Positions 6,121-29,012 of a DNA stretch of 34,477 bases are shown piece by piece. Within the stretch, counting starts at the first letter, position 1, and each line of letters starts with the position of its first letter. The notes under the pieces are model-generated. The model saw nothing but the letters and a program-made list of their open reading frames with translations. It searched no databases and was not told the origin of the DNA. A program made the translations under genes and the position numbers. This DNA is from Ruminococcus sp. (lineage in GTDB: Bacteria > Bacillota > Clostridia > Oscillospirales > Ruminococcaceae): NCBI GenBank assembly GCA_017441505.1, contig JAFRXL010000010.1, positions 1 through 34,477 of the forward strand, given 5' to 3'.

Positions 6121-7743
6121 ATGAAAAAAACTATTATCGCTCTATTGGCATCAATAGTCCTAATTTTTATATCAAATTCTTTCTATATTTCAAAAAATAA
6201 AATCAACGGAAACGCAGCACAAGATATATTGCTACAAATTAATATAAACGAAATAAAAAAGGTAGGAACTCAAAATCCTGATGGACAAGCCTGTGCTTGT
6301 TATGCAATGGCATATTGTAGAACCATTCTTGATGGATATGCACATTCATGGACTGAATATGACGCTAATAATGGCAGCTTAGGCGAAAATAATGCTTTTT
6401 GTATGTGGAAAAACGGAAATTACAATAAGGGGTATTCTTATTCAGAACTTAATCTATATCAAAATGCATACGATTCAATAAATGCCGGGAGACCTTTTAT
6501 AGTCCACGTATATAATTTTCAAAAAAATTATGCAAATGAACATTGGATAGCTATAGTTGGATACACAGCAGGCTCTAATTATAACAATTTAAATGAAAAT
6601 AATTTTTTTATAATTGATCCCGCCTCATCTGTAACTTTACAATATCCGATTTCTATGGGTGCAACTGTATGGAGATTACTTGATGAAAACGGTTATCAAT
6701 ACTGTTATACCAATTCAGGTAATGCTTTAAAATATTACAATGATGTTCCTCAAAATATTACTATAAAATCCAATAATTTAGTTACAATGGTAGGAAACAC
6801 ATTAGATTTTGAATATACAATAGAGAATGCTGAATTAAAAGGAATTGGTATAGATAAGAATGGTAAAAGATATGACTCTATCCCAGTAACTAATACTTCT
6901 GGAAAAATAAGTTATAATTTTTCTGAGGCAGGAACATATTGTATAATTACTGAGGGAAGTAATCCAAAGGGTTATGCTTGTTGTGACGGAATATGGATAA
7001 CTGTTGTTGAATCAACTTTACCTCAAAACATTTCAATCACTGCTTCAAAAACAAATGTAATGATTGGTGAACCTGTAATTTTTGAATATTCTATAAACTA
7101 CGCCTTTGATGCAGCAGGTGTTGCTATCGATAAAGACAGAAAAAGATATGCTTCTTTAGAAGTTAGTAATACATCTGGCAAAATCCAATATTCTTTTGAT
7201 ACTCCAGGAACTTATTGCGTAATTACAGAAGGTAGGAATTCAGAAGGCTATGCTTGTTGTGATGGAGTTTGGATAACTGTTGTTGAACCAACATTGCCTC
7301 AAAACATTTCAATTTCTGCTTCAAAAACAAATGTTATGGTCGGTGAACCTATAATTTTTGAATACTCTATAGATTATGCATTTGATGCAGCAGGTGTTGC
7401 TATCGATAAAAATAGAAAAAGATATGAATCTTTAGTCGTTAACAATACTTCTGGCAAAATCCAATATTCTTTTGATACTCCAGGAACTTACTGTGTAATT
7501 ACAGAAGGAAGGAATTCCGAAGGCTATGCTTGTTGTGATGGAGTTTGGATAACTGTTATTGGAAACGGCGACTGCAACGACGACGGTAAATTTAATATAT
7601 CTGATGTAGTAGTTTTTCAGAAATGGCTATTAAAAGAAGCTAATAATGAGTTAAAAAAGTGGCAGAATGCAGACCTAAATAACGACAGTATGCTTGATTC
7701 ATTCGATCTTCTTTTAATGAAGAAAGAGCTGATAAACGGCTGA
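6121..7743 (+). CDS. Secreted papain/C39-like peptidase with three Ig-like repeats and a dockerin
   Basis: 540 aa; ATG 6121 follows AGGAGG. The first ~25 residues form a signal peptide or membrane anchor. Residues ~45-200 resemble the C39_2/papain-like fold: GQACACYAMAYC (Cys58 or Cys60 as candidate nucleophile, Gln56 nearby), NEHWIAIVGY (His141) and FFIIDPAS (Asp166) give a Cys-His-Asp set in the right order. Three ~91-residue repeats follow (from residues 210, 301 and 393), each starting PQNI and ending YACCDG(V/I)WITV. The C-terminus (from ~480) is a compact dockerin with calcium loops DCNDDGKFNISD and DLNNDSMLDSFD. It probably acts outside the cell, docked to a cohesin; substrate unknown. 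The gene is much richer in A+T than GH74, suggesting separate ancestry. It is controlled from the operator-rich region upstream. A non-catalytic binding role is possible, since the family assignment rests on motifs only. Confidence 0.8.
   Translation: MKKTIIALLASIVLIFISNSFYISKNKINGNAAQDILLQININEIKKVGTQNPDGQACACYAMAYCRTILDGYAHSWTEYDANNGSLGENNAFCMWKNGNYNKGYSYSELNLYQNAYDSINAGRPFIVHVYNFQKNYANEHWIAIVGYTAGSNYNNLNENNFFIIDPASSVTLQYPISMGATVWRLLDENGYQYCYTNSGNALKYYNDVPQNITIKSNNLVTMVGNTLDFEYTIENAELKGIGIDKNGKRYDSIPVTNTSGKISYNFSEAGTYCIITEGSNPKGYACCDGIWITVVESTLPQNISITASKTNVMIGEPVIFEYSINYAFDAAGVAIDKDRKRYASLEVSNTSGKIQYSFDTPGTYCVITEGRNSEGYACCDGVWITVVEPTLPQNISISASKTNVMVGEPIIFEYSIDYAFDAAGVAIDKNRKRYESLVVNNTSGKIQYSFDTPGTYCVITEGRNSEGYACCDGVWITVIGNGDCNDDGKFNISDVVVFQKWLLKEANNELKKWQNADLNNDSMLDSFDLLLMKKELING
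6748..7560 (+). repeat. Three tandem ~273-bp coding repeats (Ig-like modules)
   Basis: Repeat units begin at 6748, 7021 and 7297 (273 and 276 bp apart). Units 2 and 3 are nearly identical over long stretches, for example around GGTGTTGCTATCGATAAA and CAATATTCTTTTGATACTCC. Unit 1 has clearly diverged. Every unit keeps one Cys in TYC and a CC pair in ACCDG. Confidence 0.85.
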
Positions 7744-9181: not shown

Positions 9182-9835
9182 TCAATCCTCCTTTTCCTTT
9201 ATCCTTTCGAGCCTGACTGTCACTCTGCTCTGTCCGCTGAGAGTACAGGTAAACAGCGTCATATCCCACTCACCGTCCTGACGGCGGAGCATCTGTTCAA
9301 CATTATAGCCGTCTATCTCCTCTGAGTATATTACTTCATAGCGGTGAACAGTTCCGGAGCAGTCGATAAAGTCCACTTCGTCGTCCTGAACGAGGTCACG
9401 GATATTTCCGAAATGGCTACTGTAGTTATGTGCTGCTATGACTATATCATCATCCTGCACCGAGCCGCTGTAACGGCAGGGTGAGTATTTAAGTCCCTCA
9501 TAGCTCCAGCCGTCCATAACAGGAAGTTCTGTACCGAGCTTAGGTATCATGATATATCCGCAGTAATATCTGTCGTCAATGCTTATCGTCTTAACTTCAT
9601 CAGTTTCATTGCTGTACTGCTCAAATAGGTCTTCCTCGCCGTCCGGCGGAGTTAAAGCTGGCTCCTGAGTATACTCATGAGTCTCCGGTATCTCGTCTTT
9701 AAGCTGGACCAGAATATCCTCCGCACGTTTGCCGGCTCTTCGGGAATCCCACACATTATACAAGCAAAGGAACAATGCCGATAATATCAGCATTGTTCCA
9801 GCAATTACAAATAATTTCCATATTTTATTTTTCAT
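9182..9835 (-). CDS. Sortase (second, possibly pilus-anchoring)
   Basis: 217 aa. One N-terminal membrane segment (residues ~8-27), a spacer rich in acidic residues, then the sortase barrel from ~85. The catalytic set is visible: His136 in AAHNYSSHFGN, Cys197 in LFTCTLSG and Arg204 in QSRVTVRL. It lacks the C-terminal membrane segment and PYGVNTHRLL-type signature of the class C enzyme upstream, so it is not a second copy of the polymerase. Class B or D are the options, and I cannot decide between them. Sortases cleave LPXTG-like motifs and transfer the protein to an amine; in pilus loci a non-class-C sortase often attaches the finished fibre to peptidoglycan. Its start overlaps the stop of the minor pilin gene (ATGA), which indicates translational coupling. 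Confidence 0.88.
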   Translation of the reverse strand: MKNKIWKLFVIAGTMLILSALFLCLYNVWDSRRAGKRAEDILVQLKDEIPETHEYTQEPALTPPDGEEDLFEQYSNETDEVKTISIDDRYYCGYIMIPKLGTELPVMDGWSYEGLKYSPCRYSGSVQDDDIVIAAHNYSSHFGNIRDLVQDDEVDFIDCSGTVHRYEVIYSEEIDGYNVEQMLRRQDGEWDMTLFTCTLSGQSRVTVRLERIKEKED

Positions 9836-10773
9836 TCTTCATCCTTTTTTGGTCTGAGGAAGGCACCTATGCCTATCATGACCACTCCGCCGCCAACCAT
9901 TGGTATCACAGGCCACCACAGCTGTCCGGTCTGAGGTATCTTCTCTTTGGAAACAGTTGTTGTAACAGGTGGAGTTGTTGATTTCTTGTAAGTATTCTCA
10001 ATAATGAACTGTGTTTCATTATGGTCGATAGCTACAGTGTAAGCAGATGGGATATTGCGTTCAACGACGCTCCAGTTCTTCTTGTCTTTTTCTGATAGCC
10101 ATGAATACTGCCAGTCATTCTCGCTGTTAAGCTTTATGGTATCATACAGACTGCCGTCGCAATAAATTTCAACATCTATCTCAACAGGTCTGTCGGAGAG
10201 GTCAGACTCATCGCCCTTCCATACCTTCTTGACTGCATATTTATTGTAAAAATCATTAGTTGAACGCATTATGAACTTAGGATAAGCATCGTAACTAAGC
10301 TCGGCATTTTCCTCAGCAATGTTGATAAGGAATGTTGAAGGAACATACAGCACATCACCGCTGATAAGTTCTTTTCCTGCAGCAAGGTAAACGCCTGTTT
10401 CGAGGTCGTTGAACTTTAGCTCGCCTTTGCTGTCAGTCTTTCCGGTTTTCAGTATCGGGATATTGTCAGCGACCGCATAGCTTTCGAGTGTCTTTGCAGC
10501 CTTTGTGTTCTCATCAGCAGTCAGCTCACCGAGGCTCACGGAATAGTTTGCAAAATCTCCTTCAAGCACAAGTTCCTTGCCCTGCATCTTTCCGACCCTG
10601 TATATACTCCATTCCATACCTATAAGAATGGTATCATCCCTGCGGCATATAAGAGTCAGGCTCGGAGCATCTTCAGCATAAGCACAGTTCCATGATAAAA
10701 CAGCCGTAAGCATAAGCACTATCGAGCCTATTGCAGCTATCACTGAAAATATTCGCTTTTTTGCAGCCTTCAT
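9832..10773 (-). CDS. Minor/base pilin with CnaB domain and IPQTG sorting signal
   Basis: 313 aa from ATG 10773, which begins 1 base after the stop of the sortase C gene; a GTG nine bases upstream (10782) is the alternative start. A signal peptide (RIFSVIAAIGSIVLMLTAVL) is followed by an N-terminal beta-rich domain (YRVGKM..., LETGVYLAAGKE) and a CnaB-type domain at about residues 185-265: KKVWKGDE supplies the candidate isopeptide Lys, WSVVERNIPSAYTV the Glu, and IIENTY the Asn. Next come a short Thr/Pro linker, the sorting signal IPQTG (residues 279-283), a hydrophobic segment and a positive tail (RPKKDEE). The small size, single CnaB domain and position next to the second sortase suggest the basal subunit that links the fibre to the wall. 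This is an inference from other Gram-positive pili. Confidence 0.85.
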   Translation of the reverse strand: MKAAKKRIFSVIAAIGSIVLMLTAVLSWNCAYAEDAPSLTLICRRDDTILIGMEWSIYRVGKMQGKELVLEGDFANYSVSLGELTADENTKAAKTLESYAVADNIPILKTGKTDSKGELKFNDLETGVYLAAGKELISGDVLYVPSTFLINIAEENAELSYDAYPKFIMRSTNDFYNKYAVKKVWKGDESDLSDRPVEIDVEIYCDGSLYDTIKLNSENDWQYSWLSEKDKKNWSVVERNIPSAYTVAIDHNETQFIIENTYKKSTTPPVTTTVSKEKIPQTGQLWWPVIPMVGGGVVMIGIGAFLRPKKDEE

Positions 10774-10774
10774 A

Positions 10775-11656
10775 TCACTCACCGTCCTTTGGCAATTGTA
10801 TTTCTTCTATCGTATATTTGTCTATATACCGGTCTTTTCTGCGTTTTCCGGTTATCATCCAATAGATAACCAATGCAGCTATGAGCGGTACTAATATTAA
10901 TGGCATTATTGTCATTCTGTCGACCTGTAATGCATCAGCAGGCACTTTCACTCTGCGGCCCTGATCGAAATTGTCGATCCTGTGAGCCCTTATGAGAAGT
11001 CTGTGGGTATTTACTCCATATGGGGTACAGGTCATAAGAGTCATGTAATCTTCCTGAGGTATGATCGCAAGCTCCTCTGTCTGATCGGGAAGTATCTTGA
11101 TTATCTTCTCGACCTCATAGGTCAGCACCTCGTTGAGTACATTAACCGTGAAAATATCGCCCTCGACCATATCATCAAGGTCAGAAAACAGCTTTGCAGA
11201 GGGAAGTCCACGGTGACCGGATATTACCGAATGTGTTGACGCTCCGCCAACGGGGAATGAAGAACCCTTTATATGTCCGGCAGCTATCTGCAATACACCT
11301 TCGTCCGTACCGTGATATATCGGAAGCTCTACACGTATGCATGGGATAGTTATATATCCCATGATGCCTGTGCCTGATATATCAAGTATATCATCATAGC
11401 CCTCTATCTGATCGTAATTTCTGAACGGAGCACTTAGCATTGCGAGTTTGCGGTTATATTCCCTTGCTTCGGCAATTCTGGCATCTATCTCTTTTTCATC
11501 GAGCTGTGCCACGGTCTCTTTATATTCGACTATTGCTTTCATTTGTATCCGCTGATTCCACCAGTTGCTCACTGTCGGATAAAGCATCACGGAGAGGCCT
11601 GCAAGGAAAATGAAAATCAGAATAACTGTAATAAGTGTTTCACGCTTTTTCTTCAT
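10775..11656 (-). CDS. Class C sortase, pilin polymerase
   Basis: 293 aa from ATG 11656; AAGGAG spacing fits this Met better than the adjacent ATG at 11659. Two membrane segments, N-terminal (~8-27) and C-terminal (~255-275), frame the sortase barrel, the class C layout. Active-site motifs are textbook: His in SGHRGLPSAKLF (149 counted from 11659), Cys in MTLMTCTPYGVNTHRLLIR (211) and Arg (220). The region before the barrel (MLSAPFRNYDQ) is where class C enzymes carry a lid, but the usual DPF/DPW is replaced by APF. The enzyme joins the Thr of a pilin sorting motif to a Lys of the next pilin, building a covalent fibre. The gene lies between the major and minor pilin genes and overlaps the latter's alternative GTG start. 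Confidence 0.93.
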   Translation of the reverse strand: MKKKRETLITVILIFIFLAGLSVMLYPTVSNWWNQRIQMKAIVEYKETVAQLDEKEIDARIAEAREYNRKLAMLSAPFRNYDQIEGYDDILDISGTGIMGYITIPCIRVELPIYHGTDEGVLQIAAGHIKGSSFPVGGASTHSVISGHRGLPSAKLFSDLDDMVEGDIFTVNVLNEVLTYEVEKIIKILPDQTEELAIIPQEDYMTLMTCTPYGVNTHRLLIRAHRIDNFDQGRRVKVPADALQVDRMTIMPLILVPLIAALVIYWMITGKRRKDRYIDKYTIEEIQLPKDGE

Positions 11657-11686
11657 CATCTTCTCCTTGTTAGTCTCTCCCTGATG

Positions 11687-11749: not shown

Positions 11750-13564
11750 TCAGTCAGCGTTTTCGTCCTTAGATCTCTTTCTGGAAACGAGGTAGATACC
11801 TGCGAGACCAGCTGCACAGCCGCCGCCGAGTACGAACAGTGTAGTACCCATGCCACCGGTTGTCGGGAGTGATGTTCCCTTGTTGTTCTCAACATCGATC
11901 TTTGCAACATCGAAATCTGTTGTATCTTCTACAGATACATTATTCAAAGCAAGATCAGTAAGAGCATCTTCTGGATCCCCGCTCCAAGCCTGATCGTTAG
12001 CTGTCTCTGCACTAAGCACTAACTCTACGTCAGGATCAGCAGGGAGCTTATATCCCTCAGGAGCCTTAGTCTCTGTGAGGATGTATGTTCCGTCATCAAG
12101 ACCGATAAACTTGAATACACCGTCTGCACCAGACTTAACAGTTGTTGTAACGCCGGATGTAAGTGACTGGTCAGCAACTGTATATGTACCGTTATTGTTA
12201 TCAATGAACTTTATCTTAGTTGTACCGCTCTTGAGCTCGAATTCAGCATCTTTAAGTTTATCCTTAGTAGTACCGTCTATCTTGGTAACATCGATCTCGT
12301 ATGTGAATACGATTACCTTATCCTCAGGAGTCTTGTCTGTCTTCTCCTTATCATCAGTTTCATCTTCTGGTGTACCATTGTCATCCTTTGGAACGTCCTC
12401 TTTTTCATCGTTTGTGTTAGGAGTATATTCCCAATTCGGATTGTTTGAGTATGTAAGGTCAACCTTGTTCTCCTGTCCTGGGATACCAATAATAGCTGTA
12501 CTATTAAGCTTAGCTGTGTACTCTACAGTTACGATAGTATTTGCGTCAACACCTGCATAAGCCTTTATATCCTCAAATGTTACTAAGATCTGATTCTTTT
12601 CAGAATCCCACTTAACACGGCAGTTTGTTCCGGTATCACCTGTTACTGTGTAAACACCGTCAACAGGATTGCTTGCTGTAAGTGTAGTACCATCCTCTCC
12701 AACTTTAATAGTTACTTCCTGAGGCTGGTCAAACTGTGTTCCGAGAGTATCAGTAAACTTGTAGTAGTAAGCATCATAATCATTAAGTGTGCTTGGCATA
12801 GAGCCGCAAACTCTGAATGGTACAGCATCACCGATGTTATAGTCAGCTACATCGTTCCATTTTCCACCGTTAATTGAAGCTGTCTCAAGAGCTGACGGTG
12901 TACCGTCAAAGCCAGCAGGAGTCTTAACATTCTCAAGAACCTTCTTGATTACTGAAGGATAGGACTTCTTAGTAGCTACTGAAAGACCAGTTGCAGCCTT
13001 ATCAGATGAAGATACCTGAAGTATGAATCTTGAAACCGCATCATTTGAATCATCGGAGACTGTATATGCATCCTTGATGAGATAATAACCCTCAGCAAGA
13101 TCTGTACCTGCTTCCTGGATAGCTGTTCCGCCGGACGTTATTGCCTTAGCAACAATGTCTGCGAGTGCCTGAGCATCTGCTGAGTCATCTACGATTCCGT
13201 CAAGTGCCTTAGCAGCAGCTGCTGCTTTCTGTGCGTCTGTTGCTGTAGCAGGAAGAGCAGCGATATACTCACCTACAGTCTTTGAACCTGCTTCGCTCTT
13301 CTTGAATGCGAGGAAACCAGCATCTGTTTTCAAAGCTGTTGCATCTGAACCCCAACCGGTTATATTGAACTCTGGGTTTTCCGGATCAGTATTGTCATAT
13401 TCACCTGTGAAGATCTGATATGCTGTGTAAGTGTGCTCTGCATTATCAGAAGAAGTATTCATCTTAACGTTTACGTCTACTGCGTATGAAGCTACTGGAG
13501 CCATTGTGCAAGCTGTAAGTGCAAGGGCAGCTGCCATTGCTAAAAATTTTCTTGTATTTTTCAT
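11750..13564 (-). CDS. Major (backbone) pilin, LPTTG-anchored
   Basis: 604 aa; ATG 13564 with AAGGAG eight bases upstream. A signal peptide (KFLAMAAALALTACTMAPVA) precedes an N-terminal domain whose TYTAYQIFTGEYD resembles FctA/SpaA backbone pilins. A pilin-motif-like element YPSVIKK (Tyr202, candidate linking Lys207 or Lys208) follows. The middle domain (~210-385) ends in a long acidic Asp/Glu/Lys/Pro linker (NDEKEDVPKDDNG...). The C-terminal SpaA/CnaB domain (~420-540) starts FTYEIDVTKID and has the E-box YILTETKAPEGY. The sorting signal LPTTG (566-570), a hydrophobic segment and the tail RKRSKDENAD complete it. Subunits should be joined by the neighbouring class C sortase, with internal isopeptide bonds stabilising the domains. 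It lies 66 bases downstream of the giant adhesin gene and is flanked by hairpins on both sides, which fits separate tuning of its abundance. Confidence 0.93.
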   Translation of the reverse strand: MKNTRKFLAMAAALALTACTMAPVASYAVDVNVKMNTSSDNAEHTYTAYQIFTGEYDNTDPENPEFNITGWGSDATALKTDAGFLAFKKSEAGSKTVGEYIAALPATATDAQKAAAAAKALDGIVDDSADAQALADIVAKAITSGGTAIQEAGTDLAEGYYLIKDAYTVSDDSNDAVSRFILQVSSSDKAATGLSVATKKSYPSVIKKVLENVKTPAGFDGTPSALETASINGGKWNDVADYNIGDAVPFRVCGSMPSTLNDYDAYYYKFTDTLGTQFDQPQEVTIKVGEDGTTLTASNPVDGVYTVTGDTGTNCRVKWDSEKNQILVTFEDIKAYAGVDANTIVTVEYTAKLNSTAIIGIPGQENKVDLTYSNNPNWEYTPNTNDEKEDVPKDDNGTPEDETDDKEKTDKTPEDKVIVFTYEIDVTKIDGTTKDKLKDAEFELKSGTTKIKFIDNNNGTYTVADQSLTSGVTTTVKSGADGVFKFIGLDDGTYILTETKAPEGYKLPADPDVELVLSAETANDQAWSGDPEDALTDLALNNVSVEDTTDFDVAKIDVENNKGTSLPTTGGMGTTLFVLGGGCAAGLAGIYLVSRKRSKDENAD

Positions 13565-13630: not shown

Positions 13631-16600
13631 TTATACGTTTTTAACACGTTTCCTAAACATTACATATCCGGCGACAGCAAGAAGTATCATAACACCTCCT
13701 GCCATATAAATTTTGTTCATTCCCTTTCCGCCGGTTTCGGGAAGTTCTACTCCAGTATCATCCGGAGTATTTTGTATCGTTATTTCAGGCATTGTTCCTG
13801 TTGATGCATTTACTGAATATTCGGTATGCTCGTCGCCGTCGATGAACAGATAGCTTGCTTTGTAGCCGTCTGCTCCGCCGACTTCTTCTACCCAATAATA
13901 GTAAGGTTCAACAGATCCGTCTGCCTTAACGTTGTACATTGGAAGATCATTTGCAATAAGCTGCCAGTTATCACTGCTGCTTATAGTCTTTTCGATGTAG
14001 CCGTCTTCTTCAAATGTCGGCTCACCTGCTGATCTTCTTGGAGTGCTCATTACCGACTTTTCGCCGGTATCTGCCGATCTTATCTCCGGTATCTCTGACG
14101 GAGCTGTTGCTGCATATGCTTTAGCTTTTCCAAGTCTCAGTGTTGATGCACTGAATCTTGTAAGCAGCATTCCGCTTTCAATATCCGGTGATGCCGAGCG
14201 TCTTCTTGGAGCTCCGCTTGGTGCTGGTGGAGATTTTGCGATGATCGTTTTATTGCCATCAGCCGTCTCTACAGTTATTGATTCGCCCCAATGCAGATTA
14301 GCTTGTTTAACTGTAAGATCAAATGACGTGCTTCCAGCTGTGTAATTTACATCTACCCACCAACCAGGTCTATTACCGTTAACGGATACATTATCATCAT
14401 CTCCATTTGTCCTGTAAATTGAACTTATAGGTGATGAAGAATTAATAATATATTTAGTTCCCGGAGTAAATGAAACCTCCTGACCAGCAATATCATCAAG
14501 CTCCATATTTTCGGTTTTAGCCTTCGTATGGATCTTTATTACATATGGACCCTGAACGTTATTCACCTGTATCAACACCGGCTTACTGCTTAGCGTTTGA
14601 GCACCGGAAGCACTGAACACAGCCGGATTACCAGTATTAAATGTGCCATACTTTTCAGCCCAGTCTATACCGGCTGTCGACATACCTATCGAAGTATTTT
14701 GTCCGGTTTCCGGATAAACCTCATATTTAAGAGGCTTCAGGTCTTTAAGTTCATCATTTGTCTGGATAGCATTTATAAGATACTTCCTGTATTCTGTGCC
14801 GCTGTCTTCTACAGCCGGAATATTAAGAGTTATTATTCCGGTTTCCTGATCGTAAGTATAGCTCAGTTCACCTCTGCTTATCTCCTGATCTCCTGATGTT
14901 TCAAATATAAACGGCATCTTCTTGGAAGCATTTACAGTTATCTCCTTCGATGCAGTCTCTCCGTCATTTCGAGTAGCTGTGATATTAGCAGTACCCTCAC
15001 CTACCGGAGTTACAACACCATTGTCGTCAACTGTAGCGACAGTCTCATCACTTGACGACCATTCAAATGTACCGAATGGAGGATCAACGTCTAAATCGAG
15101 CGTATCTCCCATATTAACGGTATCCTCACCGATCACATTAAATGTATCCGGAAGTTCAACTGTAAGTGTTACGCTGTCATGCAAGCCCTTATAGGTTGCA
15201 GTTATTGTCGCATCACCTACGCCCTTGACCGTTAATGTTCCGTCAGCTGCTACTTCTATAACATCAGTATTGCTGCTTGTATAGCCGATGCTGCTCTTAT
15301 TTGTTACATCCTCAGGCTCTTCGCCCGGAGCTGTATAAGTTGCAGTCAGCACAGCCGGAGTCTCATCATATTTGAATGTTGACTTATCCGCTGTAAGCAC
15401 CAATGCCGGATCATCTGTAACATTGACTGTAAGTTCAACTATCTGTCCGTCCTCTGATTGAAGCTTAATGGTAGTAGTTCCGGTTTTCGTACCTGTAGGA
15501 GTAATAGTCAGGATACGTCCGGCAACTCCGTCCGTTGCCACATTTATCAGAGTATCGTCATAATCTTCGCCGTCGGCAGAGATTATCTTTACCTTCTGAT
15601 TTGCAGTTACCGTAACTCCGCTTGTATCGCTCTTTGTCATGGTTACCGGATTCTTATCCAGTGAAAGTATGAGCGGATTCTGCTGAGCTTCTTCGGTATC
15701 TGCTATTGTTGAGCGGTAAACTCTTATCGTTACCTGTTCGCCTTCATGGTTCTCGTTTCCGTCGGACCATGTCTTTATGAACTTGATCTTTGCCGGCTTC
15801 AACTTATTGCTTATAGTAACAGTTCCGTTTTCAGTAGCCACAAGACCATTGTTCTGATATGTTATTTCCGAAATATACCTGTATTCCGGTTCAGACAAGT
15901 TATAGTACCCTTCTGCGGAGTGGAGCACATGAGTGCCGACCTCTTTGAAGTAGTATACATATTCCTCGCTCTGATCGTTTGTTTTCGGCAGATCCTTCAG
16001 TATCTTGCTGAAACCGTCCGCTTTTTCAAGAGTGCATATCCTGTAAGGACTGCCCATTGCAACGGTATTTATATCAGCATCCGCTGGCATTGCTATCTTT
16101 GTGCCTCCTGCCTGTGAAGCAAGCAGCTGATAGATCTCAACTGTTATACTATCCGGCAGTTTACTGAGGTCAGCGGCATTATAATCAGCATCATCAGGAT
16201 CTGTCACTATTTCATCTCCGAGAACATCATACCATTTCTTTACAATTTTCAGCTCTGTTGGCTGAGTATTGGTAATAGTTGTTCTGAATGTTCCGGATGA
16301 TGTTCTGTTTACATATGAAACTATGTAGCCTTCCGGAACCTCTGTCTCTACAGCGTAGTAGTAATAGTCACTGCCGCTGTCATTTGCTGACGGAAGTCCG
16401 TTCCATGAAGCCGCCCAGTCACCCGATTCATCGAGCAGCACCTCAGGATCAATTACAGTTATTGTAAGCTCCTGTTCAGTTCCGTCCGATAAAGCGAGGG
16501 TGATCGTTTCAGTACCGGCTGTATTTCCGGTCACTGAAAGCTGGTTGAGGCTATGGTTTATAGAAGCTATCGTGCTCGCCGGTGATGTCGAAGATATATT

Positions 16601-19600
16601 GCTATCAAAAGTGAACACCTTTGAAGCACCTTTGACAACTACCTTAACATCTCTGTTCGACTGGATGTCAGCACCTGTATATGTACCTTCAACAGCAGTT
16701 CCTTCTGCTATTGCCTCAAGCTGCTCTTCTGTAAGCTGATTGAGCGACTGTACGAGTTTAACGTTTATCTGATCGCCGCTGTGATCGGCACCCATATCGT
16801 TCCATATCTTTTCGACTGTAGCATTCACCGCAGTCTGTCTCTTATCGGTATTGATAATCTCAAGAACACCGGTACCATTACTTATCATTCTTGTTACCTG
16901 CGGTTCGAGGAATCTGCCGTCAAGAGCCGCCTGCTGTGCTTCTGTGAGTTTTTCTGCAACTTCAAAGTTATCGAAATATGCAAGCTGGTATTTCTTGCCT
17001 TCTGTATATTCCAGATAAGTGGTCATTGAACCTGCGGCAACATCTGCAAGTCCGACCTCTACAGGAAGCTGTAGTTTATACTCATTAGCATCGTTCAGCA
17101 CATGATCTTCAAGATCAAGCTTAACTCTGTATGGACCCTTTATTCCGTAGACCTCGAAGTCTATTGCCATTGATTCTGTTGAAGAACCAACTTCCTTCGG
17201 CGGATCAATTACTTTTCCGTCGAGGTTTATCCAGCTCTTCTTGACCTGAATGCCCTCCGAGTTGTTTACGCCTATCTGAGTACCGTCCTTATTTGTACCA
17301 TTTCTGGTATATACCGGAATAAACGGGCTTATCTCATCATTATGCTTGAATCTTCCGCTTGCCGGATCAAAAGTATATTTCTTTCCATTAGCGGTATAGC
17401 TTTCTTCCTGTACGAAGTAGTAGACTGGAGAGCCGTTTTTACCGGTCAGGAGTCCTGTCCACTCGACAGTGTCGAGTATCGCATCAGGATTCTCCGGATT
17501 CTTTTTATAAGTTGCGTTTATCGGATTACTAAATGTTGTATCCGATGCAGGAAGTCCGAGGAATTCCTTAGTTACCGGCTGAAGATCGGTTCCGTTCCTG
17601 TTGTAGGAGTAGTAGAGTTTAAGCTCTACAGAAGCTGTGTCCGGAATATCTATATCCTTGCCGGAGAAAGTCTTTTTCGCCTGTAGCTGTATACGGCAGC
17701 TGTTCGGTATATTAGCTGTGCCGTATGTAGTGAGTGGTTTGATGCGGCTGATTCCGTTTTCATCAAAAGCATCTTCAGGAGGTGTTCCATTAAAACCATC
17801 GTATGAGTAATAGAACACATACTCGCTGTTCGCCTTGAATCCGCCGTTTGTCCAATCAGGCTGTAAGTAATCGGTTGGAGCCTGTACTTCCACGAATTTA
17901 TAGAGTGTTTTCTGTTCAAGATCGAAATCGTGAACATTTTCTCTGTCAGCCGTTGAAGCATCATCACTGTCTGCAAATACCAGTGAAGCGGCTGCATCCG
18001 GATAGGTCTTATCATCACTGCCCTTCTGGACCTCAGTATATCCGACAGTCTCTTCTGGGAAGATGAATTTTCTTATATATCTGCTTTCACGGGATATGGA
18101 TTCTACGCTGCTTGCATATACCCACTGTCCTGAAGCAGTATCGTATTTTGCTACCTTGAATACAGCACTAAGAGTATTAAGAGTGTAGTTGTTTACATCT
18201 ACCTTATATATACTTGGATATTTGATAGCCTCTGCACTCGCACTTGAATCGCTTACATTCATTTCGCTGTGGGACTGTTTAGACCAGCCGCTTGCATTAT
18301 CTTCTTCAAATGAAGCAACGTTATCGAAATAAATGCGGTCGCCATTGCTCTGCTCACCCGGAGGTGCTGTATTTGGTTTGTAACCTGTTACACTATATCT
18401 ATACTCAACATACAGATGCTGCTGATCCGGAACTTCAACATTAAGCACTGCCGGTACCGGTTCTGGAGTTGAAAAAGCTTCTATATTATCGAGCATATAG
18501 TTAACATCATATTTTTGTTGTCCCTCTTCATTATCGTAATAGCTATATTTGGATTTATCAACAATTACGATATATTGTGTGTTTTCCGGCACCTTAAAGC
18601 TCAGTGTACTTACACCAGAACTGTTAAATGCTGGTAAAGCGATCTGACTTTGTACCATATTAGCGTACCAATTCGGTGACGCTGCATCAAATGCGGTATA
18701 GAAGTACACTTCTCCCGGTGAATCTCCGCCGTTCACCACAGGATTCTTATTTATATTGACTGTAACATTATCTCCTGCATTCCAGCCGTCTACCAAATAG
18801 AATCCGATATTAGAACCGTCCTTGGAAGCTGGCTTTCTTCCGGATACTGTAAGACCCGAACGAGGAGCGTAATTGTAATCGATCGTATAGCTGTAATCGG
18901 TTATCGGATGAGTCTTATCAACAGTTCCGTCCTCATTATAAGGATAAACTGCGATATGATCGAGAGCAAGTCTCAGATCGTTCATCGTCTTGCTGCTGCC
19001 CTCACCAAGAGTAAGCGTATCAGTGATACTGATGTAATCATCGTTAGTAAGCTTCTCTCCATCCGGATTTACTTCCAGAGTATAATTGAGGTATCCGCCT
19101 GCAACACCGGCATTGAACTTCTTATTGAGATGATCGTTTTCATCAACTATCGGATCATCCGGTATCGAGCTGTTTATAATAGTAAGAGTTGCTGTCTTAT
19201 CCTTGGTGTCATCTTCTTTTCTTATCTTATTAGTGAGAACTCCGTTTGCGAGTGCCTCATCAAGCTTATCTACCGGTATAGCGATACAATATCTGAAAGC
19301 TACTGTATTCTCACGAAGTGTAAGAGTAAGTGTATCTCCGTCCACTTCATACGTATCATTCATACCGTAATATTCATACCCTATCGGGAAATCCCTTCGC
19401 CATGTAGGGTTATCATCATACGATATGACCGGAGCATAATCACTGCCTAATGACTGAGCTTTAGCTGCATCAAGATAAATCGCACCTTCCGGCAGCGTAT
19501 CGATATACGTTATCTGTTTTGTTTTATCTGAACCCATATCAAAGTTCAGCAGCCAGCGGAATATGTAATAATCTTTTGCTGTTCCGCTGCCGTCAAGATC

Positions 19601-22600
19601 AAGTGTCTTTTTATTAAGATCAGCGGTACTGTTGACACTGTCAAGCACGCCCTCATAATCAAAGCGGATACTCGACTTACCATATCCCTTAACTTCAGTC
19701 TTATTAGTTACCTTGAGATTCTGGTTGCTGTCATACTGATTATAGGTCATCGCATTTACAAGCTTATTATTATAAGTAGCAGTATAACCAGATTCTTCAT
19801 CAAGGATTTCTTCTACTCTGTAGTAGTAATCGATAACGCATCCGTTTTCATCAACTGCCCATTTCGGAACATCGTCTGGCAATTCAAACCAATCTTCGGC
19901 GGTCTTTGCACCTGCCGGAAGAGTATACTCTTTATACTCAGTCCATTTTTCGGTATCAGTTTCAGCCGGAGCAGCTCCGTCTTCTGCACGAGCCTGCCAT
20001 ATCTTGATTTTAATATTCGCCGGACGTGTGTCGTAGGCATTGTTCTTATCGTCCCAGCTCTTTGTAAATTTGAGACGTATCGTTTCAACAGGATTCGGAT
20101 CTTTTCTTTCAAAGGTCATTCCCGGAACATCCTTAGGAGTACCATTGAAGTTAAGTGTATTCGAGAACTGTGAAGTGCTGCCGTTCTGTATACCGCTTAC
20201 ATCTGCTTCTGTCTTATAATTTACTGATATATAACGGTATTTTGAAGCATCGATGTCGGAAGTGAAATCGACCTCAAACTTAACAGCCTTTTCTGTTGAA
20301 GCTGCAAGATCAGTTATCTCGTTACCGGAAGCATCAAAGAACTTGATAGTGTACATATTGCTTGCAAGAGGAGTCATTGTACTATCATCATCGACCGTAT
20401 TACCGTATATCTCTATTGCGGCTGCCTGCTGCGGAGTTATATAATGTAATCCGCCGTTTGCATCGCTGAGAATGGTATCTTCAAATTTATCGCCGCCGGT
20501 TATATAGTTGTCCTTAACAAGCTTTATGTTCCAGTTAAGCTCTCTGTCGTCTGTATCGTTCATACCGACAACATTTGAAGACTTATTATCTGAAATTCCT
20601 TTATAGTATTTCTTGCCTTCTATTCTCATCTTGAGAGTTCCGATGTCACCTGCACCGTCAGTCACGCTGCCGTCAGGCGAAGAGCCCTCTGCGGTATTGC
20701 TTACCTTGACTTCCTGACCAGCCTGATAACCGGCATAATTTCCGGTATCAAATGTTGTTTGTGAAAGCGGCTTTGTATAGAACATCTCTATTTTGTTTAC
20801 TATCTTTGTGGGATCAGTAAGGTGGATAGTTACCGTATCAGATGCCGGATCTTTAGATAAAGTTACATATGAAGAAAGGTCTTCTTCCTGATCGGTATAT
20901 CCTGATTTCTTACTTGCATCGCTCCAGCGGTTGTAGGTACGGAAAGCATTGAATGTGATCTGATCTGCTGTAAGACCTACAAATGCCGGATCGGAAATGG
21001 TGTATCCGTCAAGAGTTCGCTTACTGTTCGCATCGACTCTCGGTTCACCATTCTGATCGGTATAAGCATTAGCTGTAGCAGATATTTTCCATTTTACCTC
21101 TTCCGTATCGGAATTGAAGTCATCGAACCATTTTCCTACCTGGAACTGATGCTCATATTTTACTGTTACATCACCTGTATCCGCCGGAGTAGGAGGATTC
21201 GGTATATGCTGACTTACGCTCGCACTGTTGGTTTGCTCGGTGCTCGACATACCGTCCGTATTATCGAAGGTAACATCCTTCATATAAACTATATCGAGTG
21301 AAGCCGGTATATCAGGAGCATTACTAAAGCTAAGCCTGTTTCCGCTAATCGTATATTTACTTGGATTAAGCTCATGCTTTTGCCAGTTCTCATCAAAGTA
21401 ATATACCTTTGCATCTGCCGGTATAGCTGAGGAATCTTCCACAACTGCTTCTTTAAGACTATCGCCCGAGTAATTATCAACGTGGATAGTCCACTGTATC
21501 TTATCGTTCGTGCCTGCACCCTCAACATAATAATCCGGTGTTCCGGTTTTGCTTATATTGAGTTTGTTCTCAATAGTCATTGTCTTTGAAGCAGTTATAG
21601 GTGTCTCATCACCCTTCTGAGCACTTACATCATTATCATATGTATGTCCGTTTGTCAGATTGCTCTGCTTATAAGTTATAGTTACCTGCTGATTGCTTCC
21701 GGAAAGTGTGAAGTTACCGTTTCCGGTATGAGTTGCACTTCCTTCTGGTGAAACCGTTATGTCGCTTATAGTTGACCAGTCTAAAGCTGTACCGTTGTCT
21801 TTCAGAACATCGGTAAGTGAATACTGGCTGAGGTCGATATAACCTCTTGGGTCTGTAAGAGTTACAGTCCAGAGAATATATTTATTCGGACCTTCACGCT
21901 TGATCTGTCCTTCCTTGGAAATCGTGAGCTTATCATCAGCAAAATCCACATCAAGCTCAACGTTATTTACCTGACTTATCACGATGTTCTTGTCACCGTC
22001 AGCATCATCTGCTCTTGTTACGTTACCGGAGAAGTTTATCGCTCCTTTGAATCCGTTTGTACAGGTATTCAAATAAGAGACGTATTCATTGGTAAAGTAT
22101 ATCGATATAAGTCCGCCGCCGTCTGCACCTTTGGATATTGCATAATATCCGGCTGGTGTAGTAGCACCCTGCTCCCATGAAGTATCGATAACGGTCATGC
22201 TGGAACCGAAGTAATCCTGATTGATCTTCAGGTCTGCCGGGATATTGTAGTGTACGTAATGATTATCAAGTATTCCCGACTCAGCGAGCTGAGCACCGGT
22301 ATACTCATAATTAAGTGTAATACTTAGTAAAGCTGAATCAACATCTCCAACATCAACGATGCACGGAGAGCCGTCATATTTCTGACCGCCGCTGATTACC
22401 GTTATGCTCTGTATCTTGTCTTCAAAGTCATTACTGCCTGCCATTGGCGTTGAAGGTGCGGAGCTGACAAAAGGTGTTGTATCGCCTCTCCGGTTAAGCT
22501 GGATGATCTTTGAAATGTCCACCCTTCCCGCATTCTGTCTTGTCATACTGACTCCCGGAGCTATCATCGACACCGGAACTACAAATGTAACTAAAACAGA

Positions 22601-22705
22601 GAGAGTCAGCAAACAAGCTATAAATCTTTTGTTTTGCTTCCTGTTTCGTATAAGTTCATTGATCTTCCTATGCAGATCTTTCACACCGCTCTCTCCTTTC
22701 ATCAT
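13631..22705 (-). CDS. Giant LPETG surface adhesin, probable pilus tip, with split CnaB domains
   Basis: 3024 aa. ATG 22705 has AAAGGA upstream; a GTG at 22684 with AAAGGAG at good spacing is an equally good start. A positive stretch (RNRKQNKR) and hydrophobic signal segment lie at residues ~27-50. Residues ~100-870 are adhesin-like beta-sandwich and DUF11-like repeats (WTVTLTDPRGYIDLSQ, WTIHVDN, WKISATAN, WNIKLVKDN). CnaB-like modules start near Lys882 (FTKSWDD), a SpaA-like one near 1496 (YPSIYKVDV, E-box FVEVQAPTDY), then near Lys1823 (VKKSW), Lys1966 (VEKIW), Lys2157 (VKKW) and Lys2311 (FIKTW). Big_2-type Ig domains occupy ~2335-2590. The last CnaB resumes only at ~2905-2980 and is followed by LPETG (2988-2992), a membrane segment and the tail RKRVKNV. 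No vWA/MIDAS motif was seen. The size and position upstream of the major pilin suggest a tip adhesin; the ligand is unknown. Confidence 0.92.
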   Translation of the reverse strand: MMKGESGVKDLHRKINELIRNRKQNKRFIACLLTLSVLVTFVVPVSMIAPGVSMTRQNAGRVDISKIIQLNRRGDTTPFVSSAPSTPMAGSNDFEDKIQSITVISGGQKYDGSPCIVDVGDVDSALLSITLNYEYTGAQLAESGILDNHYVHYNIPADLKINQDYFGSSMTVIDTSWEQGATTPAGYYAISKGADGGGLISIYFTNEYVSYLNTCTNGFKGAINFSGNVTRADDADGDKNIVISQVNNVELDVDFADDKLTISKEGQIKREGPNKYILWTVTLTDPRGYIDLSQYSLTDVLKDNGTALDWSTISDITVSPEGSATHTGNGNFTLSGSNQQVTITYKQSNLTNGHTYDNDVSAQKGDETPITASKTMTIENKLNISKTGTPDYYVEGAGTNDKIQWTIHVDNYSGDSLKEAVVEDSSAIPADAKVYYFDENWQKHELNPSKYTISGNRLSFSNAPDIPASLDIVYMKDVTFDNTDGMSSTEQTNSASVSQHIPNPPTPADTGDVTVKYEHQFQVGKWFDDFNSDTEEVKWKISATANAYTDQNGEPRVDANSKRTLDGYTISDPAFVGLTADQITFNAFRTYNRWSDASKKSGYTDQEEDLSSYVTLSKDPASDTVTIHLTDPTKIVNKIEMFYTKPLSQTTFDTGNYAGYQAGQEVKVSNTAEGSSPDGSVTDGAGDIGTLKMRIEGKKYYKGISDNKSSNVVGMNDTDDRELNWNIKLVKDNYITGGDKFEDTILSDANGGLHYITPQQAAAIEIYGNTVDDDSTMTPLASNMYTIKFFDASGNEITDLAASTEKAVKFEVDFTSDIDASKYRYISVNYKTEADVSGIQNGSTSQFSNTLNFNGTPKDVPGMTFERKDPNPVETIRLKFTKSWDDKNNAYDTRPANIKIKIWQARAEDGAAPAETDTEKWTEYKEYTLPAGAKTAEDWFELPDDVPKWAVDENGCVIDYYYRVEEILDEESGYTATYNNKLVNAMTYNQYDSNQNLKVTNKTEVKGYGKSSIRFDYEGVLDSVNSTADLNKKTLDLDGSGTAKDYYIFRWLLNFDMGSDKTKQITYIDTLPEGAIYLDAAKAQSLGSDYAPVISYDDNPTWRRDFPIGYEYYGMNDTYEVDGDTLTLTLRENTVAFRYCIAIPVDKLDEALANGVLTNKIRKEDDTKDKTATLTIINSSIPDDPIVDENDHLNKKFNAGVAGGYLNYTLEVNPDGEKLTNDDYISITDTLTLGEGSSKTMNDLRLALDHIAVYPYNEDGTVDKTHPITDYSYTIDYNYAPRSGLTVSGRKPASKDGSNIGFYLVDGWNAGDNVTVNINKNPVVNGGDSPGEVYFYTAFDAASPNWYANMVQSQIALPAFNSSGVSTLSFKVPENTQYIVIVDKSKYSYYDNEEGQQKYDVNYMLDNIEAFSTPEPVPAVLNVEVPDQQHLYVEYRYSVTGYKPNTAPPGEQSNGDRIYFDNVASFEEDNASGWSKQSHSEMNVSDSSASAEAIKYPSIYKVDVNNYTLNTLSAVFKVAKYDTASGQWVYASSVESISRESRYIRKFIFPEETVGYTEVQKGSDDKTYPDAAASLVFADSDDASTADRENVHDFDLEQKTLYKFVEVQAPTDYLQPDWTNGGFKANSEYVFYYSYDGFNGTPPEDAFDENGISRIKPLTTYGTANIPNSCRIQLQAKKTFSGKDIDIPDTASVELKLYYSYNRNGTDLQPVTKEFLGLPASDTTFSNPINATYKKNPENPDAILDTVEWTGLLTGKNGSPVYYFVQEESYTANGKKYTFDPASGRFKHNDEISPFIPVYTRNGTNKDGTQIGVNNSEGIQVKKSWINLDGKVIDPPKEVGSSTESMAIDFEVYGIKGPYRVKLDLEDHVLNDANEYKLQLPVEVGLADVAAGSMTTYLEYTEGKKYQLAYFDNFEVAEKLTEAQQAALDGRFLEPQVTRMISNGTGVLEIINTDKRQTAVNATVEKIWNDMGADHSGDQINVKLVQSLNQLTEEQLEAIAEGTAVEGTYTGADIQSNRDVKVVVKGASKVFTFDSNISSTSPASTIASINHSLNQLSVTGNTAGTETITLALSDGTEQELTITVIDPEVLLDESGDWAASWNGLPSANDSGSDYYYYAVETEVPEGYIVSYVNRTSSGTFRTTITNTQPTELKIVKKWYDVLGDEIVTDPDDADYNAADLSKLPDSITVEIYQLLASQAGGTKIAMPADADINTVAMGSPYRICTLEKADGFSKILKDLPKTNDQSEEYVYYFKEVGTHVLHSAEGYYNLSEPEYRYISEITYQNNGLVATENGTVTISNKLKPAKIKFIKTWSDGNENHEGEQVTIRVYRSTIADTEEAQQNPLILSLDKNPVTMTKSDTSGVTVTANQKVKIISADGEDYDDTLINVATDGVAGRILTITPTGTKTGTTTIKLQSEDGQIVELTVNVTDDPALVLTADKSTFKYDETPAVLTATYTAPGEEPEDVTNKSSIGYTSSNTDVIEVAADGTLTVKGVGDATITATYKGLHDSVTLTVELPDTFNVIGEDTVNMGDTLDLDVDPPFGTFEWSSSDETVATVDDNGVVTPVGEGTANITATRNDGETASKEITVNASKKMPFIFETSGDQEISRGELSYTYDQETGIITLNIPAVEDSGTEYRKYLINAIQTNDELKDLKPLKYEVYPETGQNTSIGMSTAGIDWAEKYGTFNTGNPAVFSASGAQTLSSKPVLIQVNNVQGPYVIKIHTKAKTENMELDDIAGQEVSFTPGTKYIINSSSPISSIYRTNGDDDNVSVNGNRPGWWVDVNYTAGSTSFDLTVKQANLHWGESITVETADGNKTIIAKSPPAPSGAPRRRSASPDIESGMLLTRFSASTLRLGKAKAYAATAPSEIPEIRSADTGEKSVMSTPRRSAGEPTFEEDGYIEKTISSSDNWQLIANDLPMYNVKADGSVEPYYYWVEEVGGADGYKASYLFIDGDEHTEYSVNASTGTMPEITIQNTPDDTGVELPETGGKGMNKIYMAGGVMILLAVAGYVMFRKRVKNV

Positions 22706-22720
22706 TAGATTTGTCCTTTA

Positions 22721-23302
22721 TCAGGGCTTCCCGAATTTATCGAACGGGTAAACTCTGAGAACCACCTTTCCGAGCACGTTTTCCTCCGCTATGCATCCAA
22801 CGGAAGTTGAACGGCTGTCTACAGATACAGCTCTGTGGTCACCCATTACAAACAGTCGGTTTTCCGGCACCTGATAGGGCATTGTTATGTCGCATTCGCC
22901 TTTAGCTTTACCGCTTACATAAGGTTCATCAAGTTCCTCGTCATTAAGAACGACTGTGCCGTCGTCTTTAATAAGTATATTATCCCCGGGAACTCCGATG
23001 ACCCTTTTAAGCAATACCTTATTATTATAATAGAAAGCAACTATGTCTCCGGTCTTATAGTGTGATGACCTAATGCACATCACGACCTCTCCATTTGTCA
23101 ATGTAGGAGACATACTTGAACCGGTAACTCTGAATACCGGTATAAGTCTCGTTGAGACTATAACTGCTATCGCAGCAACTACTATAAGTGCTCCGACAGT
23201 ACTTTTCAAGTTTCGGAAAAAGCTTTTTTTATACCTTAGCCTTTTCAGTTCTCTTCCAAGCTGTTCGGAAGAGGGAATATCCATTATTTTTTTATCAGTC
23301 AT
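22721..23302 (-). CDS. Signal peptidase I (S26)
   Basis: 193 aa from ATG 23302; a GTG start at 23326 would add eight residues. One membrane segment (~36-56) is followed by the catalytic domain. Ser63 in GSSMSPTL and Lys99 in LLKRVIGVPGD form the Ser/Lys dyad, and FVMGDHRAVSVDSR is the conserved box near the C-terminus. Type I signal peptidases remove signal peptides from exported proteins. A dedicated one at the head of a pilus operon is common in Gram-positive pilus loci, where it supports pilin export or acts as a chaperone. Its start overlaps the end of the upstream coiled-coil gene by 8 bases and its stop is 15 bases before the giant adhesin gene, so it is clearly part of the operon. Confidence 0.93.
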   Translation of the reverse strand: MTDKKIMDIPSSEQLGRELKRLRYKKSFFRNLKSTVGALIVVAAIAVIVSTRLIPVFRVTGSSMSPTLTNGEVVMCIRSSHYKTGDIVAFYYNNKVLLKRVIGVPGDNILIKDDGTVVLNDEELDEPYVSGKAKGECDITMPYQVPENRLFVMGDHRAVSVDSRSTSVGCIAEENVLGKVVLRVYPFDKFGKP

Positions 23303-23525
23303 TACTCTTTTTATCCTCAGAAGCACTGTCAGCCGGTTCGGGAGTTTCAGTCTCGCTCACGGCAGTCTGCTTCTTTTTTAACTCGATAGCCTCATCAGCT
23401 AACGAAAACAATTTATCTTTCAGCAGATCATTTTCCGCTTTAAGTTCTTCGTTTTCCTTTTTTAAATAGTATAGTATTTCAATAAGTTCTACCCTTTTCA
23501 GCTTTTTCAGCTCTTTATCCGTCAT
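23295..23525 (-). CDS. Small acidic/coiled-coil protein, first gene of pilus operon
   Basis: 76 aa from ATG 23525, chosen because GGAGG lies seven bases upstream; longer in-frame starts lack a ribosome site and run toward the promoter. MTDKELKKLKRVELIEILYY is followed by a strong heptad-like coiled coil (residues ~18-52) and an acidic Glu/Pro/Ser tail. No signal peptide or membrane segment is seen, so it should be cytoplasmic. Short proteins beginning with a similar KKLKRxELIE pattern occur in many Clostridia near surface-protein genes; the function is not known to me. It overlaps the signal peptidase gene by 8 bases and lies about 56 bases after the predicted transcript start. Confidence 0.8.
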   Translation of the reverse strand: MTDKELKKLKRVELIEILYYLKKENEELKAENDLLKDKLFSLADEAIELKKKQTAVSETETPEPADSASEDKKSND

Positions 23526-23968: not shown

Positions 23969-24826
23969 TCAGATATTGCCGGAAATAGTTATGATGCTCT
24001 CGCCCGGCTGAGTGCTCCATATTCCGGTGACTGTATCCTGTGTAAACACTGCGGCAGGTACTGTTATCTGACCTGCAAGTGTTGTAAACTCTCCCGTAGC
24101 TTCATTATAAGCGTAGTTTATGCCTGCTGTCCACGGTAAACCGTTGAATGTTGCAGTAAGATTCCTTAATACCGGATCAAAAGTGTCTGTGAATATAACG
24201 TCATCTGCTGTTGTAGCCGGTTCACTGCCATAATTACGTATCACAAAGGTATAGGTCAGTGCTCCGTTTTCTTCAACTGCAACCGGATCAAGAGACTTGC
24301 TTATCTCAAGTGAAGGTGTATTTTCCGGAGTTATCTGCTCTGACGCTGATACATCTGTTATGCCTGCTCCGCTGAGAACTGCTGTATTAATCACATAAGT
24401 GCCGTCCCCAAGAGGTGCGAACTGATTAGCTGTTGCAGAATAAATTATAGCCGCATTGCCGTCCGCAGGCACGCTAATGCCTGTAACTGTAAGCGGAGAA
24501 AGCGAAATTACAGTCGGTGCAGGCTGGAGAACTCCGTTTACATAGTAGCTGAGAGTACCCTCCTCGTAAGTCAGCGGAACTACAGTTACAGCCGGATCAC
24601 CTACTTCATACGTACCAAGATCATCGGTGAGCGTTATCCCGTTAAGAGTTGTGGAACCGCTGTTCACCATGCTTACCACGAACACTACGTTATCACCGGT
24701 AGTATAGGTCTCCGGAGTTGCGTTCTTAGATGCGGAAAGAACTTCAAGTATCTCTCCGGTAGTTATATTAGAAGTGGTCACTGTTCCGTTATAGGAAAGT
24801 GTTGCCTGATTATAAAATACTGCCAT
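23969..24826 (-). CDS. Leaderless DUF11-type repeat protein
   Basis: 285 aa; ATG 24826 is preceded by GGAGGAATC. The sequence is Thr/Val/Asn-rich with almost no Cys or basic residues. It has two related beta-sandwich halves: residues ~30-165 (TGDNVVFVVSMVNSGSTTLN, ITLTDDLG) and ~170-285 (LEISKSLDPVAVEENG, LTYTFVIRNYGSEP, VIFTDTFDP). These match the DUF11 / conserved-repeat pattern of bacterial surface proteins. Unusually, it begins MAVFYNQATLSYNG with no signal peptide, membrane segment or sorting motif. I recall similar leaderless DUF11 proteins in many Clostridia; their location and role are not established as far as I know. It is a single-gene unit with its own promoter, structured leader and terminator. 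Confidence 0.85.
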   Translation of the reverse strand: MAVFYNQATLSYNGTVTTSNITTGEILEVLSASKNATPETYTTGDNVVFVVSMVNSGSTTLNGITLTDDLGTYEVGDPAVTVVPLTYEEGTLSYYVNGVLQPAPTVISLSPLTVTGISVPADGNAAIIYSATANQFAPLGDGTYVINTAVLSGAGITDVSASEQITPENTPSLEISKSLDPVAVEENGALTYTFVIRNYGSEPATTADDVIFTDTFDPVLRNLTATFNGLPWTAGINYAYNEATGEFTTLAGQITVPAAVFTQDTVTGIWSTQPGESIITISGNI

Positions 24827-28958: not shown

Positions 28959-29012
28959 TGGTAAAAATCTCCTTGATATATTTTTTATATAGCTATAATG
29001 ATTGATATATAA

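Follow-up and report, generated by a model that had tools for sequence, protein, structure and literature searches.

A terminal CnaB domain of Ruminococcus sp. probably split by a large multi-module insert in its B-C hairpin

The last CnaB domain of a giant LPXTG protein of Ruminococcus sp. is, judged by sequence comparison, very probably a single, putatively isopeptide-stapled domain in two pieces that carries a cargo of about 560 residues in its B-C hairpin. The gene was found in a stretch of 34,477 nucleotides, which as a whole is called the window here; it belongs to a 2.2-Mb draft genome that is 80% complete. A preliminary description of this DNA had assigned the domain Lys2311, Glu2941 and Asn2979, with 668 residues between Lys and Asn, and reading of the ORF translation confirmed these positions and the spacing. 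In the protein (P0001), FIKTWSDGNENHEGE corresponds to residues 2309-2323, YYYWVEEVGGADGYK to residues 2935-2949 and EITIQNT to residues 2974-2980. The following features of the gene are relevant:

13631..22705, minus strand: giant LPXTG protein P0001, 3,024 aa, carrying the split domain (ORF translation)
16265..16819, minus strand: CnaB two before the last, residues 1963-2147, split in the same hairpin, K1966/E2120/N2146 (half-profile scan)
16448..16648, minus strand: small Ig-like insert of CnaB 1963-2147 (about 2020-2086), modelled by AlphaFold2 as an independent beta domain
15800..16255, minus strand: preceding CnaB, contiguous, residues 2151-2302, K2156/E2255/N2300 (from the sequence)
15698..15799, minus strand: N-half of the terminal CnaB, residues 2303-2336, strands A and B (contiguous-CnaB HMM from position 2; single N-half peak)
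15773..15775, minus strand: Lys2311, predicted isopeptide lysine (invariant in 9/9 aligned proteins)
14006..15697, minus strand: insert between strands B and C, residues 2337-2900 (564 aa by eye; the profile gives 559)
13766..14005, minus strand: C-half of the terminal CnaB, residues 2901-2980, strand C to last strand (HMM positions 42-104 of 105)
13883..13885, minus strand: Glu2941, predicted catalytic Glu (invariant in 9/9 aligned proteins)
13769..13771, minus strand: Asn2979, predicted isopeptide asparagine (invariant in 9/9 aligned proteins)
13730..13744, minus strand: LPETG sorting motif, at residue 2988 (sequence motif)

The sole match returned from the named genome collection (L033, the twin) stems from a Ruminococcus sp. 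MAG from sheep rumen and shares 92% identity with the window over the region. Its layout is equal and its K-N spacing is also 668 residues, and since it is a separate MAG, this argues against an assembly accident. Within the protein of the window, CnaB 1963-2147 is interrupted at the B-C hairpin as well, by about 86 residues; the Ig-like inserts 2005-2092 and 2338-2434 of the two domains have no detectable likeness to each other (BLASTP E 0.55).

For the comparison with uninterrupted domains, a CnaB HMM was built from 12 contiguous CnaB domains of 7 proteins, including the window's own contiguous CnaB and excluding the twin. The upstream piece met this HMM from position 1-3 in all 11 tails, and the downstream piece of 8/11 tails started at position 33 or later, i.e. 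without the first third of the profile. Some splits are unclean: in the window, L037, L038, L039 and L041, the N piece reaches beyond HMM position 60, and in L040, L041 and L042, the start of the C piece lies before position 20. The early start in the latter three speaks for a different and rather improbable reading, in which the halves are separate, residues 2303-2336 being the edge of an Ig-like domain that the residues after them complete, and 2901-2980 an independent, shortened CnaB-like domain. Against it stand the results obtained with half profiles, for which the contiguous-CnaB profile was cut in two, so that no split domain was part of the training. On 60-aa pieces of residues 2290-2985, the N-half profile gave a sole peak for pieces starting at 2290-2310 (10.8 bits; next value elsewhere 2.7) and the C-half profile a sole peak at about 2900 (24.6 bits), with 4.9 bits at 2290, where the preceding CnaB ends. 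The window's N-half reached 3 bits in a whole-protein scan vs 10.8 in the short pieces; this low score counts in favor of separate domains, and four of 22 terminal N-halves score under the threshold of the scan.

The half-profile scan covered 33 proteins, of which 29 had matches and 4 had none. These 29 comprise the window, the twin, 9 proteins from the first tail search and 18 with a C-half matching profile A3; the scanned set includes the 12 training domains and was picked for window-like tails or C-halves. N- and C-halves alternated in 202/222 neighbor steps, whereas 2,000 label shuffles averaged 123 and reached at most 151. The steps were 113 N-to-C, 89 C-to-N, 5 N-N and 15 C-C, i.e. 20/222 did not alternate. 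Without the twin, alternation was 197/215, and additionally without the steps inside training domains 178/196. At stricter thresholds it amounted to 160/187 (shuffle maximum 130) and 150/178 (shuffle maximum 124), with more C-C steps (21 and 23) because weak N-halves drop out. From C to N, the spacing had a median of 2 residues, with 20/89 values outside the range of -6 to 8 and a maximum of 955. From N to C, the gap was two-peaked: it was either at most 35 residues or between 86 and 1,483 residues, the latter in 37/113 cases. In shuffled proteins, about 0.3 N-half and 1.3 C-half matches were obtained per data set, in the real proteins 118 and 133. The alternation and the two-peaked gaps across proteins both count against separate domains.

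With the twin dropped, K was present in 35/36 split vs 71/74 contiguous domains, E in 33/36 vs 50/74, N/D in 28/36 vs 56/74, and all three together in 25/36 vs 39/74, where the residue patterns overlook some Asn that another pattern detects, e.g. in L036, L038 and L041. The nearly constant Lys of the split domains is a further point against unrelated halves. Also, the C-half profile matched the solved Cna B repeats of S. aureus (1d2p, 1d2o; E 3.9e-5), which belong to the same CnaB family by sequence but are contiguous and have no insert. The alignments began at chain residues 33, 129, 220 and 316, which we take to be about one third into each of these domains. Thus, the halves match the contiguous-CnaB HMM in the right order and the C-half matches a solved Cna B. 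The general Pfam model counts against the one-domain reading: Cna_B gave no match to the terminal domain of the window at E <= 1 and exceeded its cut-off on the C-half in 2/10 terminal regions scanned (L036, L040).

AlphaFold2 contributed little to the frame itself. For residues 2290-2987 (698 aa; two alignment rows, window and twin), the mean pLDDT was 43, with the CnaB frame below 50 and confidence only near the third Ig domain. For residues 1952-2150, again with the twin, the mean was 49, with the frame below 50 and confidence only in the small insert, a block of pLDDT 61-86 with values <50 on both flanks. The frame was left unassembled in both predictions, which the separate-domain reading would accommodate; the small insert of CnaB 1963-2147, however, was modelled as a self-contained beta domain, which counts against that reading. 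Because structure prediction could not decide, the case for one domain rests on comparison, and the single peaks, the alternation, the two-peaked gaps and the conserved K/E/N together favor the proposal of the preliminary description that the two half-motifs make up one CnaB domain.

In a protein search of family genomes, matches were obtained in 230/396 genomes at E <= 1e-3, most of those listed covering only the Big_2 part; ten places that matched within or close to the halves were chosen from the matches listed and read. In an alignment of the window with 8 tails from seven genera, all 12 invariant columns lie in the halves and none in the insert. These are K2311, W2313 and R2331 in the N-half and W2914, L2921, Y2937, W2938, E2941, Y2952, D2956, G2970 and N2979 in the C-half. 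The nearest full-length relative among the matches listed, L034, has 37% identity and a K-N distance of 670 residues; in L035 to L041, this distance is 692, 494, 399, 305, 576, 816 and 264 residues, in this order. The C-half profile A3 found 25/396 family genomes at E <= 1e-8, including 12 with E below 1e-15 (both counts contain the window's own genome), and 0/397 other genomes drawn from the phylum; viral contigs gave no match to the window tail. The split, the insertion point, the retained K/E/N and the variable cargo can thus be read from the comparison of these proteins.

The preliminary description had called this way of displaying modules unusual. Size, insertion point and cargo look new, but the arrangement is not a one-off: leaving out the twin, the terminal CnaB was read as split in 22/28 proteins and as contiguous in 6/28 (L048, L049, L054, L055, L057, L059), proportions which, like the others given here, are not family rates because the proteins were chosen for window-like tails. 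Of the split ones, 18 were recognized by the half-profile scan; the other four (L034, L042, L046, L058) were identified with the full profile or visually. L043 has no CnaB half and was excluded from the counts. In a tree of 25 terminal C-halves, 15/22 inner branches were open and 3 starred; it contains 3 label changes and is compatible with one origin. The sequences of L042 and L046 stop at the contig edge after the Glu, so that the Asn lies beyond the sequence. Both giant genes (G135, contigs C55 and C56) have a near-identical 3' end and break off within it at one common point, and this shared break point suggests a repeated tail that broke the assembly.

For the insert, the preliminary description had listed at least three Ig/Big_2-like domains, a beta-rich region and a basic linker. 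Pfam detects two Big_2 stretches, and the remainder was read from the sequence:

15410..15694, minus strand: first Ig-like segment, about 2338-2432 (from the sequence; L034 and L035 have similar stretches; no Pfam match)
15152..15409, minus strand: second Ig-like domain, Big_2-like, about 2433-2518 (placed by reading; Pfam counts two Big_2 and prints the best one)
14927..15151, minus strand: third Ig-like domain, Big_2, about 2519-2593
14216..14914, minus strand: beta-rich module, about 2598-2830 (read from the sequence; no Pfam match)
14012..14215, minus strand: basic low-complexity linker, about 2831-2898 (read from the sequence)

By Pfam, a complete foreign domain (Big_2) lies between the predicted bond residues. 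The first part of module 2598-2830 can be aligned with L034, L039 and L042 at 21-26% identity; Pfam gave no match to this module, and a PDB profile search returned only short matches with E 0.02 or worse. No carbohydrate-binding module was detected in the window insert by Pfam or PDB sequence search, and the PDB search matches of the insert to carbohydrate enzymes sit on its Big_2 part. The cargo of the window probably consists of Ig/Big_2 spacers and module 2598-2830 as a putative glycan- or surface-binding one. In the linker before the C-half, a loosely common RF...LRLG.A.AY stretch was seen by eye in the window, L034, L035 and L037.

The cargo of relatives differs. In the window and the nine relatives scanned first, Big_2 exceeded the Pfam cut-off in 6/10 terminal regions and no CBM did so. 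Among ten further terminal inserts, four hold a carbohydrate-binding module or a GDSL hydrolase over the Pfam cut-off, namely CBM_4_9 in L052 (four stretches, 8.6e-20), CBM77 in L060 (7.6e-30) and L056 (2.6e-20), and a GDSL hydrolase in L047 (2.2e-18), and the other six gave nothing over this cut-off. A module common to the inserts of L034, L035, L037, L039 and L040 matched the solved CBM 5aot (profile E 3.7e-12), which, like 5fu2, belongs to CBM74-RFGH5, presumably from R. flavefaciens as the entry name suggests. In that case, the CBM is part of a GH5 enzyme, whereas the module of the relatives sits inside a surface isopeptide domain; a CBM of this kind was not found in the window's own insert by PDB sequence search. 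Modules A8 and A9 of relatives gave nothing at E <= 0.1 in a PDB profile search.

Inserts are also present in non-terminal CnaB domains, and Pfam recognized GDSL hydrolases over the cut-off in 8/10 of these and no domain in 2/10. GDSL/SGNH hydrolases of about 255 aa were observed in mid-protein CnaB inserts of L035, L036, L038, L039, L040, L042, L046 and L061. When ten GDSL-type inserts were checked by pattern, GDSI was found in 10/10, GTND in 8/10 and D..H in 9/10; this set included the L051 insert, which was covered by the pattern check alone and has neither GTND nor D..H, and in L038 the pattern first matched elsewhere. Related frames can hold different cargo: L047 (GDSL) groups with L051 (none recognized) with a support of 92/85, and L052 (CBM_4_9), L056 and L060 (both CBM77) and L058 form a group of four with a support of 96/90. 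Genome G135, which belongs to the window's genus, has four such genes (L042, L046, L047, L061), and their inserts have no mutual similarity at E <= 1e-3.

In the window, a signal peptidase I gene precedes the giant gene, which is followed in turn by the genes of the major-pilin-like protein, the class C sortase, the small CnaB protein and a second sortase-like protein:

22721..23326, minus strand: signal peptidase I (TIGR02227 over cut-off)
11750..13564, minus strand: major-pilin-like LPXTG protein with isopeptide domains (TIGR04226 over cut-off)
10775..11659, minus strand: class C (pilus) sortase (NF033745 266.6 bits, cut-off 160)
9832..10782, minus strand: small CnaB protein (Pfam Cna_B over cut-off)

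With the model of SpaH/EbpB major pilins (NF033902), the major-pilin-like protein scored 83.6 bits, under the cut-off of 95. The small CnaB protein is a possible basal pilin. The second sortase-like protein (9182-9835) scores just above the general TIGR01076 cut-off and far under that of the class C model. Tip genes of pilus operons have this layout, with signal peptidase, major pilin and class C sortase genes as neighbors. The giant LPXTG protein, encoded together with a major-pilin-like gene and a class C sortase, is therefore probably a pilus-tip subunit and not wall-proximal: its sorting signal is more likely to connect it to the shaft of the pilus, so that the last CnaB would link tip to shaft. 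The placement of the insert next to the wall anchor in the preliminary description is thus probably wrong, since the gene lies between the signal peptidase and the major-pilin-like gene, followed by the class C sortase.

By tblastn on 29 fetched loci (twin included), signal peptidase and pilin were found in 20, pilin in 23, sortase in 8 and none of these neighbors in 6 (L041, L042, L043, L046, L050, L061), misses that say little because many fetched stretches end early. The loci L048, L049, L054, L055 and L057, in which the terminal CnaB is contiguous, have neighbors as in the split loci, and that four of them (L048, L049, L054, L055) carry an uninterrupted domain in an equal operon context again counts against two separate domains. 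The wider neighborhood of the window includes dockerin proteins and a GH10 enzyme, as is typical of fibre-degrading Ruminococcus. Upstream of the operon, a protein of 285 aa is encoded (23969-24826), which gave DUF11-type matches and, more weakly, matches to DUF7507 and DUF4183. According to a survey of isopeptide bonds, DUF11 has been renamed CLIPPER, an isopeptide domain (PMC12617251). A 276-bp tandem repeat with 2.3 copies (6929-7561) is part of a dockerin protein that gave a Peptidase_C39-like match and a weak one to PKD, and a further protein (27312-29063) has a transglutaminase-like domain and a dockerin in addition to leucine-rich repeats.

Pairing of the halves between molecules, with the K-half of one tip protein stapled to the C-half of another, is conceivable given the distance of about 560 residues between the halves and the fact that engineered split CnaB domains ligate. 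It is nevertheless highly improbable, as tip proteins usually occur in one copy per pilus and nothing in this analysis pointed to such pairing. Closure within one molecule is the reading followed here.

Known pilins provide partial precedents. We take 2XID to be Spy0125 and 3TXA to be GBS104. The domain inserted in GBS104 and RrgA is of von Willebrand A type, as opposed to the several insert kinds seen here. Both proteins resemble the window in that an isopeptide domain is split between the bond residues, but the survey describes CnaA-like folds with Asp for them, while the window has a CnaB with Glu (PMC12617251). This survey states that CnaA and CnaB folds both tolerate domain insertions in loops and names RrgA and Spy0125 (PMC12617251), so that the principle of domain insertion is known. 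Its Table 1 gives K188-N692, i.e. 504 residues, for the GBS104-like 3TXA as the largest separation in that table, and for 2XID a domain of residues 291-384 and 588-598 with K297/E347/D595 and a K-D distance of 298 residues (PMC12617251). Spy0125/Cpa of S. pyogenes comes closest, being a pilin with a CnaB-like domain and a large domain between the bond residues; it is described as a CnaB domain of SpaA type into which a thioester domain is inserted (PMC12617251, PMC6194298). The insertion in Spy0125 follows the Glu and immediately precedes the last strand, in contrast to the position between strands B and C, before the Glu, in the window, and it consists of one thioester domain vs about 560 residues with several domains (PMC12617251, PMC6194298).

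Compared with these systems, the hairpin used, the insert size and domain number, the enzyme or CBM cargo and the recurrence along one protein look like new features; no report of CnaB domains with CBM or GDSL inserts was found among the matches listed, mainly from open-access literature. According to the legend of its Figure 3, the survey scanned the AlphaFold Database with an upper limit of 1,280 residues (PMC12617251). Since 26/29 of the proteins scanned here are longer than this and Pfam Cna_B passes in only 2/10 regions, published surveys may under-count such domains.

One CnaB domain that forms no bond, with K/E/N retained for packing only, is an unlikely alternative. The survey reports that folds in which large insertions separate the bond residues lack aromatic caps, which shows only a differing site detail (PMC12617251). 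K, E and N are invariant in 9/9 aligned proteins, and bonds are listed in its Table 1 for the insertion-bearing domains of Spy0125 (2XID) and GBS104 (3TXA) (PMC12617251). From the conserved K/E/N, we infer a Lys2311-Asn2979 bond in the two-piece domain. For its fold, force path and ligand we likewise infer the following.

Strands A and B with Lys2311 would be followed by about 560 residues of independently folding modules and then by strand C onward with Glu2941 and Asn2979. The halves would fold together, and the Glu would promote the Lys-Asn isopeptide bond between first and last strands, as in other CnaB domains, thereby closing a covalent ring of about 669 residues around the whole insert. 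Force on a CnaB with a first-to-last-strand bond passes through the bond, and isopeptide domains resist extension. A pulling force from the stalk to the sorting signal would thus enter at strand A, cross the bond and leave through the last strand without passing the insert, and this would make the B-C hairpin a force-shielded cargo slot. Off the force path, modules would be held fixed and unstretched by the frame, and their exchange would be harmless to it. Some relatives appear to load this slot with carbohydrate-binding modules or an esterase-like enzyme.

As a more tentative generalization, which we consider possible though somewhat less likely than its opposite, the B-C hairpin may serve throughout the family as a cargo slot at the pilus tip, holding exchangeable, tension-free modules from Ig spacers to CBMs and GDSL esterases of up to about 1,500 residues. 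If true, plant-fibre-binding and -deacetylating modules would be carried on one filament, and cargo would be swapped in evolution with the staple undisturbed. This would show how enzymes and binding modules carried on a surface filament escape stretching while the filament is under mechanical load. The family would also provide a natural set of insertion-tolerant isopeptide frames, which protein engineers could copy for loop display. It further suggests that gut and rumen bacteria have pili which attach to the plant cell wall or act on it.
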